From a virus: a stretch of 27,520 nt of DNA. Location of the stretch: the IMG/VR virus record IMGVR_UViG_3300032224_000126, positions 1-27,520 of that record; one strand, given 5' to 3'. This document shows positions 4,253-10,779 of the stretch, piece after piece (the first letter of the stretch is position 1; every line of letters begins with the position of its first letter). The notes beneath the pieces are model-generated. The model was given only the letters and a program-made list of their open reading frames with translations, was not told the origin of the DNA and searched no databases. The translations under genes and the position numbers were made by a program.

Positions 4253-5270
4253 TTAAGTAACTCCCATGCTGTTGCTGCACATAAAGGGACTTGTCCATTT
4301 CCAATGGCTTTAAGTCTGTCCACCCTAGCGGCCACCCCATTAGCCACTCGACCCACGTTGGGTTCAACGTCCCACCAATTGCCGTTTGTTCGCCCATCAT
4401 TATTGCGTTTGGCAATTGACCCATGTGACTTCGTTTGCCCTGAGATATTTTCTCTGTTGTTGTTTTGAAACTGTTTGCCCCCTTGTAATCCCGTGTCGCA
4501 GGTGTAGGCCACAATTTGACTTTCGTTGGCAAATCCAACTCTTGACCCGTGTTGCTCCTGCCGCTGCTCCCCTTGTGATCTCGTGCTTGCGGTGTCGGCC
4601 ATTTTTTCACATAACTTTGCAATGTTCTGCCCGATTGAGATTTTGCCGTTGGATCGTAATCTTTTGTCGGTCCTCTCGCACTTGCGTCTGGTGTCGGTAG
4701 TTGTAACCGCTTCTTGAGTGCCTTCCGACCATTGCTGCCCCCATCCAAACCCGTTGTGTTCGGTGTGTGAAAGAATGTTTCGTTGTTCGGCTCTGATCCA
4801 AATTCTTTCACGCTGATGGTTTGCACCAACATCGGCAGCTGATACAACGCCCCATTTTGCATTGAACCCCAGCGTGGAAAGGTCTGCAAGGACAACTCCA
4901 AGTCCTCTAGAAGTGAGCATTGGGCTGTTCTCCACAAAGACGTACTGGGGTCTAACCTCGCCAATGATCCTTGCCATGTGTTTCCACATTGAGGATTTAT
5001 TTCCTTCGATTCCTGCGCCTTTACCTGCTGCGCTGATGTCTTGGCATGGAAATCCTCCAGATACAACGTCAACAATTCCTCGCCACGGGTTTCCGTCAAA
5101 GGTTTGTACGTCATCCCAAATCGGAAAAGGCGGGAGAATTTTGTCATTTTGTCGGGCGCACAGTACGCTTGCTGGGTATTGTTCCCATTCAACGGCGCAA
5201 ACAGTTCTCCATCCAAGGAGGTGTCCTCCAAGTATTCCTCCACCAGCGCCTGCGAAAAGAGCCAACTCAT
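4245..5270 (-). CDS. Alternative-frame 341-codon ORF over the whole methyltransferase gene
   Basis: A second minus-strand frame is open for 341 codons, starting 4 bases and ending 4 bases after the methyltransferase. Its ATG at 5270 forms the ATGA overlap with the stop of the 212-residue gene that is usual in this operon, and AGAGGG is better spaced for it than for GTG 5274. The product has repeated W/LPTP segments (LPTPDASARG, WPTPQARDHKG, WPTPATRDYKG) and a tryptophan-rich end (NPTWVEWLMGWPLGWTDLKP). I recall ORFs with these motifs annotated as separate phage proteins. They could simply mirror conserved methyltransferase motifs read in another frame. Translation is unproven and a passenger frame is the default view. 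Confidence 0.3.
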   Translation of the reverse strand: MSWLFSQALVEEYLEDTSLDGELFAPLNGNNTQQAYCAPDKMTKFSRLFRFGMTYKPLTETRGEELLTLYLEDFHAKTSAQQVKAQESKEINPQCGNTWQGSLARLDPSTSLWRTAQCSLLEDLELSLQTFPRWGSMQNGALYQLPMLVQTISVKEFGSEPNNETFFHTPNTTGLDGGSNGRKALKKRLQLPTPDASARGPTKDYDPTAKSQSGRTLQSYVKKWPTPQARDHKGSSGRSNTGQELDLPTKVKLWPTPATRDYKGANSFKTTTEKISQGKRSHMGQLPNAIMMGEQTAIGGTLNPTWVEWLMGWPLGWTDLKPLEMDKSLYVQQQHGSYLNE

Positions 5271-9583: not shown

Positions 9584-9653
9584 TTATGTACCTTTTATCG
9601 TTAATGGCGGGTATGCCATGACTAATATTAAGCAATCTAAATACATAATGCAA
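9584..9653 (-). promoter_or_regulatory. Early promoter, operator and leader hairpin for the recombination operon
   Basis: On the minus strand a -35 TTGCAT (9648-9653), a 17-base spacer and a -10 TAATAT (9625-9630) form a strong sigma70-type promoter. The -10 lies within an operator-like motif; in plus-strand reading it is ACTAATATTAAGCAATCT (9621-9638) and recurs near 7357 and 9697. Transcription should begin near 9619, exactly where the inverted repeat ATGGC-ATACCC-GCCAT (9604-9619) starts, so the mRNA would carry a 5' hairpin. AAAGGTACATAA leads to ATG 9583. Confidence 0.82.
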
Positions 9654-9680
9654 GTGAAAAACTCACAATTAAAATATTTA

Positions 9681-9718
9681 TTGAGTTTCTTTGACAACTA
9701 ATGTTAAGATGTCTTATG
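9681..9718 (+). promoter_or_regulatory. Regulator promoter and overlapping operator
   Basis: The plus strand carries ACTAATGTTAAGATGTCT (9697-9714), matching the operators of the two minus-strand promoters at 14 of 18 positions. It ends two bases before the regulator's ATG 9716. Two promoter readings are possible: TTGAGT (9681-9686) with TTAAGA (9704-9709) at 17-base spacing would start RNA near the ATG and give a leaderless message; TTGACA (9691-9696) with TTATGA (9714-9719) would start inside the gene. Either way the operator sits where a bound repressor would block its own gene. Confidence 0.6.
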
Positions 9719-9931
9719 AAAACAACAGACATCATTCAAGCATTAGGCGGCACGTTTGCGGTAGCCAAGCTATGTCGTGTCAGTCCTTCAGCCGTAAGTC
9801 AATGGCGAAACAACGGCATAGCAAAGGATAAATTAATTATGTTAGCCACGGAAATTGAAACAAAGTCTAATGGCGCCTGGACTCGCAAAGAAATCCCCAA
9901 CTGGGCGCAAATCTGGCCCGAGTTGAATTAA
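9716..9931 (+). CDS. Cro/YdaS-like transcriptional regulator
   Basis: This 71-residue protein begins MKTTDIIQALGGTFAVAKLC and has a helix-turn-helix (FAVAKLCRVSPSAVSQWRNNG, two helices around residues 14-33). The C-terminus GAWTRKEIPNWAQIWPEL matches the tail I recall from short YdaS/Cro-type phage regulators. ATG 9716 is preferred to the in-frame ATG at 9701, which overlaps the operator. It is divergent from erf and lies next to operator copies, so it probably represses the early promoters and itself. No larger CI-like repressor with a peptidase domain is present here, so lysogeny control cannot be decided. Confidence 0.85.
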   Translation: MKTTDIIQALGGTFAVAKLCRVSPSAVSQWRNNGIAKDKLIMLATEIETKSNGAWTRKEIPNWAQIWPELN

Positions 9932-9965
9932 GATTGTTGGTATGTGAAAGCGGATTCTATTGCTC

Positions 9966-9980
9966 AAGGGTAGTACCCTT
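9966..9980. promoter_or_regulatory. Perfect 7-base inverted repeat downstream of the regulator
   Basis: AAGGGTA-G-TACCCTT is a 15-base palindrome around one central base, 35 bases after the regulator's stop. It could be a binding site for a dimeric protein or the stem of a weak terminator (AAGGG-TAGTA-CCCTT followed only by TTT). Its motif does not match the CTAATATTAAG operators, so a different protein would be needed. The stretch 9981-10041 shows nothing else definite. Confidence 0.4.
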
Positions 9981-10041
9981 TAACCATACTAGTTTGTAGT
10001 TATAAATAGCTTGCATAGTGCAGCGAGTAACATATCAACAC

Positions 10042-10070
10042 TTGACACACCATAAATAGGATGAAATAAT
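10042..10070 (+). promoter_or_regulatory. Strong sigma70-type promoter of the small-RNA unit
   Basis: TTGACA (10042-10047) is a perfect -35 hexamer. A 17-base spacer leads to AATAAT (10065-10070), five of six matches to the -10 consensus. Transcription should begin near 10077 on the plus strand. It is the best promoter in the window by consensus and has no coding region directly behind it. Confidence 0.8.
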
Positions 10071-10076
10071 TACATT

Positions 10077-10190
10077 GTTGTCGTTGCAGATAACTAAGCC
10101 GTTTAAGTCTATATATTGAGCCTTCGGGCTGGCATCCTTAAAAAAGATGTTCTGCAACCAATATATAGATTTAAGCGGCTTTTTTGTTTT
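10077..10190 (+). ncRNA. Predicted structured small RNA ending in a terminator
   Basis: A promoter at 10042-10070 leads into a segment of about 114 bases that folds almost completely. Arms 10096-10118 and 10159-10181 pair over 23 base pairs with only two G-U pairs. Inside, AGCC-UUCG-GGCU (10119-10130) is a hairpin with a very stable UUCG tetraloop stacked directly on the long helix. A second hairpin pairs GCATC (10132-10136) with GATGT (10146-10150), giving a three-way junction. The transcript ends in TTTTTTGTTTT. No open frame with a ribosome site lies within it. I do not recognise the RNA family. It could act by antisense, bind a protein, control transcription, or be a packaging RNA; only its existence is supported. 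Confidence 0.7.
10159..10190 (+). terminator. Intrinsic terminator closing the small-RNA unit
   Basis: The 3' arm of the 23-base-pair helix (10159-10181), with a GC-rich base AGCGGCTT, runs directly into TTTTTTGTTTT (10180-10190). The stem is much longer than an ordinary terminator because the whole RNA forms the hairpin. On the minus strand no T-run follows the helix, so it should act only on plus-strand transcripts. Confidence 0.78.
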
Positions 10191-10557
10191 TAAAGATAAC
10201 TGTCAGGGCGCATTAGCTAATAGAGTGACCACTCGTACCCAGAACAGGTTAAGTAAAGATTCAAGGTTGTATCCGGTGTGACCCGCACCTCTAAGTACCG
10301 AAAGGGAACAGAATATAGACAGACTAGAGAAATCTAGTAAAACCATTTACTCTAGGTGTTGATCTTCTACAGCTGCAAGGACTGCTACTGTTTTAGGGAA
10401 TCTAGGGGTGGGGTGAGCCGCCTGCCATAAGCGTTACAACGCACAGGTCTGTCGTAAAGGATTTATCCTCAACTACTATCAGTAGCTTGCTACTACGGTG
10501 GGTGGGTATAAGGGTAGGGGTACTTTATTCTAAATAATAATAATAAGGGTTAACGCT
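10191..10557 (+). other. Hairpin-rich stretch without a supported gene
   Basis: No convincing coding frame, tRNA or rRNA is visible in these 367 bases. Short hairpins are dense: GGTGTG-ACC-CGCACC (10275-10289), ACTAGA-GAAA-TCTAGT with a GNRA loop (10323-10338), GCGT-TACA-ACGC inside CCTG/CAGG (10421-10447), AGGAT-TT-ATCCT (10458-10469) and GTAGC-TT-GCTAC (10482-10493). The first part of 10324-10355 can instead pair CTAGAG with CTCTAG. Two G-rich runs follow, then AT-rich repeats before the next gene. It may be a long 5' untranslated region, a second structured RNA or an origin; nothing decides between these. Confidence 0.5.
10500..10520 (+). other. Potential G-quadruplex motif
   Basis: Four G-tracts (10500-10502, 10504-10506, 10512-10514 and 10517-10520) separated by 1, 5 and 2 bases fit the canonical G3-N1-7 pattern. 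It lies 37 bases upstream of the 10558 gene and next to AT-rich repeats (10530-10546). TATAAG at 10507-10512, inside it, could serve as a weak -10 element. A role in transcription or replication initiation is speculation. Confidence 0.4.
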
Positions 10558-10779
10558 ATGACGCTCTGGGACTGGATGTTTGTGTTTTACTTGTCAGCCG
10601 CAGTTACGGTTGGTGGCATGATTTTCATGTATCGCACCAGACGCAAACCGCCTACATATCCTAAAGATTGGATTTGTGACGGTTGCGGTCAAGTTTCTAG
10701 CGAATTACGAGAAGGAATGTGTGCGTATTGCACAAATTTCTACAAACCTACGGAACATTGCCGCCAACGGGGTAAGTAG
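10558..10779 (+). CDS. Small membrane protein with zinc-ribbon motif (73 aa)
   Basis: An AAGGG ribosome site lies 8 bases before ATG 10558. The product has an N-terminal membrane helix (residues about 7-25), a basic stop-transfer segment (YRTRRKPP) and a cytoplasmic part with CDGC (40-43) and CAYC (55-58), a four-cysteine zinc-ribbon-like arrangement, plus Cys68. No family is recognised. It is one of only two genes on the plus strand. Its last 32 bases overlap, in antisense, the end of the secreted-protein gene at 10748. Plus-strand transcription here could therefore oppose the end of the late operon. Confidence 0.68.
   Translation: MTLWDWMFVFYLSAAVTVGGMIFMYRTRRKPPTYPKDWICDGCGQVSSELREGMCAYCTNFYKPTEHCRQRGK

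Follow-up and report, generated by a model that had tools for sequence, protein, structure and literature searches.

The window, by which we mean the whole 27,520-nucleotide stretch of DNA analyzed here, represents part of the genome of a P22-like phage and carries, at positions 10042–10190 and entirely on the plus strand, a promoter, an RNA of ~110 nt, and an intrinsic terminator. As judged from aligned relatives, the conserved core of this RNA is a 5' hairpin (P1), a pseudoknot (PK1), and a long terminator helix (P2), and the comparison makes it near certain that both the RNA and PK1 are real. Because several relatives carry the RNA just ahead of their DNA-replication genes, a role as a switch that controls phage replication is probable, and we infer that the switching is pseudoknot-based. 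With this locus, an RNA family not yet catalogued is added at a key decision point for P22-like freshwater phages, a widespread group; its covariation is very strong and includes a pseudoknot that is hypervariable yet strictly Watson-Crick. Its features are as follows.

9716–9931, plus strand: P22-Cro-like regulator (PF14549), with its ATG at 9701 or 9716; constant neighbor of the RNA.
10042–10070, plus strand: promoter, with −35 TTGACA (10042–10047), a 17-bp spacer, −10 AATAAT (10065–10070), and TG preceding the −10.
10077–10094, plus strand: 5' hairpin P1, with stem 10077–10082/10089–10094 and 6-nt loop GUUGCA (10083–10088; N-U-N-R motif).
10083–10090, plus strand: 5' strand of pseudoknot PK1, GUUGCA, extending to GUUGCAGA.
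10096–10118, plus strand: 5' arm of long helix P2 (terminator stem), from covariation.
10119–10130, plus strand: inner hairpin with UUCG loop, from folding; missing or replaced in some relatives.
10131–10151, plus strand: second inner hairpin, from folding, with loop CUUAAAAAA; varies among relatives.
10151–10158, plus strand: 3' strand of PK1, UCUGCAAC, in the junction linker.
10159–10181, plus strand: 3' arm of P2, from covariation.
10180–10190, plus strand: U-run of the intrinsic terminator, from sequence; also retained in relatives.
10194–10545, plus strand: RNA B, a second conserved structured RNA, with ~17 covarying pairs and 336 G-U versus 7 A-C cells.

The promoter scores 11/12 and is the sole 11/12 site in the window (~0.003 such sites are expected by chance per 150 nt), and the predicted transcript start, ~10077, is the first base of P1. 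A −10-like element is also found directly 5' of P1 in L246 and L074, relatives that came from the covariance model and not from a promoter search. The segment 10074–10190 has a minimum free energy of −44.9 kcal/mol (z = −6.8), which 0/200 shuffles equal, and no ORF of at least 60 aa overlaps 10042–10190. These results bear out the initial annotation, which had described a promoter-to-terminator unit with a near-consensus promoter (TTGACA/17/AATAAT), a 23-bp closing helix (10096–10118/10159–10181) whose two non-Watson-Crick pairs are both G-U, a UUCG hairpin, a second hairpin, and a T-run from 10180, all of them present as described. It had also placed the unit beside a regulator in a plus-strand island, and this neighbor proved to be the P22-Cro-like gene.

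In most relatives the promoter spacer (window 10048–10064) contains a hairpin right after TTGAC, with a variable, covarying stem and a constant loop GGAAAGAC; in the window this hairpin is disrupted. Viral contigs that seem unrelated (L348, L350, L360, L369, L378, and L380) also contain the motif, in up to three copies per locus, some of them without a −10. Between cro and the promoter, window positions 9932–10040 may form another structured element, whose ends (GUUGGUAUGU...ACAUAUCAAC) pair and whose inner arms differ with compensation in L096; in other relatives this interval is taken up by a different element (GCCTTTAGCAAGC...).

The Cro-like gene is likewise followed by a homologous RNA in dozens of IMG/VR contigs and in two GenBank phage genomes. 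Relatives were gathered by IMG/VR scans with the regulator, the Erf protein, the lysozyme, and the tail spike, the GenBank relatives were found via the regulator protein, and a covariance model added GenBank MW202674 (68.7 bits), L074, L162, L152, and L067. Another relative, MW202520, is a ~34-kb genome from a freshwater spring with no integrase or repressor annotated, and it is from the spring origin of two GenBank records that we take these to be freshwater phages. In MW202674, small minus-strand ORFs annotated as proteins over the RNA (4881–5099; L333) are probably spurious. The earlier statement that no known family matches agrees with Rfam 15, in which the 10042–10190 RNA had no match at the gathering score, whether taken from the window or from L245, L246, L097, L068, L125, L160, or L164. 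A permissive Rfam search of 9600–10700 returned chance-level matches only (E 2.5–3.2), as did a nucleotide search of phages and plasmids with 9950–10560, where the chance matches were short. Scanning bacterial genomes with the regulator yielded six distant homologues, all without the RNA, and the covariance model gave no hit among 300 genomes of a single order (reached via a Burkholderiales MAG), a weak negative since few candidates were scored per genome.

Across 25 distinct aligned sequences, 97.3% of the cells of P1, PK1, and P2 pair, compared to 38–44% when the partners are slid by 1–3 columns. Within this alignment, 97.4% of the cells of the 23-bp P2 are paired and 12 of its 23 pairs show double changes, while P1 has 96.7% of cells paired and three pairs with double changes. 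Changes on both sides affect 20 pairs and 90 cells, and no shuffle attains the observed values; homologues had been proposed as the place to look for uncompensated breaks of the helix, and the opposite emerged in the form of these 90 compensatory cells. G-U cells outnumber A-C cells by 74 to 6 across the alignment, indicating a conserved RNA that is read from the plus strand and upholding the earlier suggestion that RNA pairing, rather than DNA symmetry, is kept.

The initial annotation overlooked both the 5' hairpin (10077–10094) and the pseudoknot (10083–10088/10153–10158). In PK1, the P1 loop (10083–10088) pairs with a linker inside the long helix (10153–10158), and the pairing is extendable to 8 bp (10083–10090/10151–10158). 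All 144 of 144 cells are Watson-Crick, with no G-U, in the 24 correctly aligned sequences of the main groups; this count leaves out the row of L118, which is misaligned by one base and likewise has a perfect 8-bp PK1 partner. Across all groups we found 15 different 7-nt strands, each complementary to its own linker, and when loops and linkers were swapped between RNAs of the main groups the average energy was −5.5 kcal/mol, versus −11.5 kcal/mol for an RNA's own pair. The P1 loop starts with N-U-N-R in 33/33 listed RNAs, the motif in L074 lying one position 5' of the listed segment.

The inner hairpins, by comparison, differ among relatives in number (one or two), order, and sequence. The three-way junction that had been offered as the hallmark of the RNA is thus present in the window and is only a variant within the family, which is better described as a pseudoknotted terminator; the rest of the earlier reading, namely the promoter-terminator unit, its strand, its pairing, and its novelty, stands. 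Two simple explanations can be weighed against these data. The position downstream of cro and the intrinsic terminator at the end would suit a plain terminator for cro transcription whose additional structure arose by chance, an explanation that is contradicted by the covariation of the pseudoknot and by the promoter that relatives retain between cro and the RNA, leaving it very improbable. The size, the closing helix, and a junction that includes loop pairing recall phage packaging RNAs of the phi29 pRNA kind, and a packaging-type role was among the candidates named earlier. Its location speaks against this role: in MW202520 the unit lies at ~6.5 kb, the terminase genes being found at 31–32.7 kb, a distance of ~25 kb in the numbering of that genome, and the RNA adjoins cro and the replication genes. 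With the interior junction not conserved and no match in Rfam, we find a packaging RNA scarcely credible.

The position of the RNA relative to genes points elsewhere. An ATG lies 11–23 nt past the U-run in 12 distinct relatives, leaving little room for a separate promoter, and the terminator stands between the promoter and the following gene, as in an attenuator; in the window, it is RNA B that follows. The first gene after the U-run often encodes a DUF1376 protein (PF07120, E 2.6e-19) in a replication operon. MW202520 is of this replication-gene type, its DUF1376 gene being followed by a gene annotated as replication protein P, and the leader RNA likewise precedes a replication gene in L318, L323, L324, and L373.

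We therefore favor, with a confidence that falls just short of even, a structured leader at the head of a replication module, equipped with a promoter and an intrinsic terminator of its own; in this leader the pseudoknot would work against pairing at the base of the terminator. PK1 would form first during transcription because both of its strands are transcribed before the 3' arm of P2, and in a folded window prefix ending at 10158 the PK1 strands are already paired. With PK1 in place, the base of P2 would be unable to close fully and the polymerase may read through into the replication genes (in the window, into RNA B), while closure of P2 would stop transcription and release a stable ~110-nt RNA. 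Candidates for setting this balance are the Cro-like protein at the promoter, an antisense RNA, a host factor, or kinetics alone; no ligand or binding protein was found for the leader. The at least 15 natural loop/linker pairs make the switch hypothesis directly testable.

Geometry and energy are consistent with such a leader. In the main groups P1 and P2 are 0–2 nt apart in most sequences, and PK1 ties the apex of P2 to the bases immediately 5' of that helix. In a rough rigid-body model built for the single sequence L122 (5/9 cases), combining PK1 with all 23 P2 pairs breaks two linkers by 14.6 and 12.6 Å; the residual drops from 438 to 6.4 as the four outer P2 pairs open, and only then is there a near fit. 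In light of this coarse model, a strict mutual exclusion of pseudoknot and helix was softened to the statement that outer pairs must open. PK1 has an energy of −6 to −12 (mostly −8 to −11) and the outer 4–5 P2 pairs, which constitute the terminator base, −7 to −12, so that the two are similar in most sequences. Taken together, these observations suggest a co-transcriptional contest between the pseudoknot, which would allow readthrough, and the closed helix, which would terminate.

The groups located directly before genes (L097, L116, L140, L196, L323, L326, MW202520, L340, L373, L022, and L068) have a P1-P2 linker of ~11–14 nt, with which pseudoknot and terminator could coexist unless a second pseudoknot occupies the linker. 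Within this linker, 5–7 nt can base-pair with the loop of the first inner hairpin, and the pairing varies on both sides between groups (UCCAAC/GUUGG, UCAGCA/UGCUGA, UGGACA/UGUCCA, and GCAAC/GUUGC). The swap test for this second pseudoknot was moderate (−7.6 for own versus −4.8 for swapped partners, with 14% of swaps equally good). L094 and L096 are without a good PK1 and have the second type of pseudoknot alone. Since most gene-proximal relatives have the second pseudoknot, the sequence just 5' of the terminator would pair with its apex in these groups, too.

The complete promoter, the strong terminator, the predicted 5' end flush with P1, and the retention of the same RNA before differing downstream elements would also fit a stand-alone small RNA acting in trans on host or phage mRNA or on a protein, the pseudoknot providing compactness and nuclease resistance. 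We consider this less likely than the leader, given the start codons 11–23 nt past the U-run in 12 distinct relatives and given that no seed-like unpaired segment common to all groups was seen and the inner loops differ. Loop and linker might alternatively pair between molecules, in dimers, in rings, or between a finished RNA and a nascent leader, bringing about copy-dependent self-control or phage incompatibility. The full helix and the pseudoknot together are a poor fit in cis in the main groups, and the pair is hypervariable but strictly Watson-Crick while the loop retains N-U-N-R. A hypervariable Watson-Crick pair with a conserved loop motif resembles antisense kissing loops. Ornate RNAs such as GOLLD, described in PMC12286853 as forming homo-oligomers, also count in favor of pairing between molecules. 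A cis pseudoknot, however, is the simpler account of the same covariation, and we regard the intermolecular arrangement as unlikely.

We compared the proposed leader to known systems. In the pistol ribozyme, as in PK1 here, the loop of P1 base-pairs with a linker located within the following helix; unlike in that ribozyme, P2 comprises ~20 bp and ends in a U-run, and neither pistol nor any other ribozyme was matched in Rfam at E up to 5 for window positions 9600–10700. The rep leaders of pT181 and pIP501 have an intrinsic terminator directly before the replication gene that is switched by a countertranscript. Our RNA is similar in that, in relatives, its terminator directly precedes a replication gene, and differs in its conserved internal pseudoknot and in that no countertranscript was seen. 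The titles cited in PMC10724649 include one on pT181, as well as titles that present a loop/leader pseudoknot as a molecular switch in the ColIb-P9 and IncL/M replication leaders and one that gives the ColIb-P9 loop motif as 5'-rUUGGCG-3'. As in the repZ/repA leaders of these plasmids (IncI-alpha ColIb-P9 and IncL/M), a hairpin loop pairs with a downstream element of the leader. A replication gene follows in some relatives and RNA B in the window, and the UUGGCG of the cited title also occurs as the loop of MW202520, L097, and L323, paired with a CCGCCA or CCGCCAA strand. In contrast to ColIb-P9, the window loop is GUUGCA, and unlike the IncI and IncL/M leaders our RNA contains an intrinsic terminator within the same fold, so that control would be transcriptional. 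The plasmid systems have an antisense Inc RNA encoded opposite the hairpin, and their pseudoknot activates translation by way of a leader peptide. Here a promoter scan gave only a weak 9/12 site on the minus strand (10341–10312) and, by eye, no minus-strand terminator stands next to P1; an RNAI-like antisense gene opposite P1 was rejected as having no convincing promoter or terminator. Because no antisense RNA was found, the window loop differs, and the terminator is built in, we do not class the RNA as a member of the IncI/IncL-M type; by analogy, it resembles a phage version of the plasmid replication-control pseudoknot leaders, built into a transcription terminator. The gene order, with a Cro-like gene, a terminator, and O/P-like genes (e.g., in MW202520), also resembles the early right operon of lambda (cro-nutR-tR1-O-P), unlike which it has its own promoter between cro and the terminator, a pseudoknotted terminator, and no N-like protein identified.

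Downstream of the RNA the window has no replication gene and instead has RNA B, which is probably reached by readthrough from the upstream unit. RNA B follows the leader in the main groups, the window included, and falls into three divergent types (the window type, the L125 type, and the L160/L164 type). In tblastn searches, the two replication proteins of MW202520 were absent from six records of ~34–35 kb (G404–G407, G409, and G412), at whose loci (L122, L104, L134, L164, L074, and L102) the leader is followed by an RNA of the RNA B kind, and both were present in MW202520, G408, and G411. This distribution suggests that RNA B and the DUF1376/P-like genes (MW202520 6662–7751) are alternative modules in the same place, a reading to be taken with the caveats that distant versions may escape tblastn and that a replication protein of its own is annotated in MW202674. 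It is conceivable, though in our view quite doubtful, that the phages of the window type swapped a protein-coding O/P module for an RNA-based one, in which a pseudoknot-gated leader would control the ~350-nt RNA B as an origin or primer RNA that recruits the host replication machinery, and the hypervariable loop-linker pair would set compatibility between phage groups. No switch in GC skew of the kind expected for an origin was seen at RNA B. The L160/L164 type overlaps the Rfam family RF02932, Betaproteobacteria-1, at ~80 bits, and by eye no similar leader lies upstream of the Betaproteobacteria-1 loci in bacterial genomes. On the minus strand of L125, positions 213–279 match the int-alpA RNA (Rfam RF02996), barely over the cut-off.
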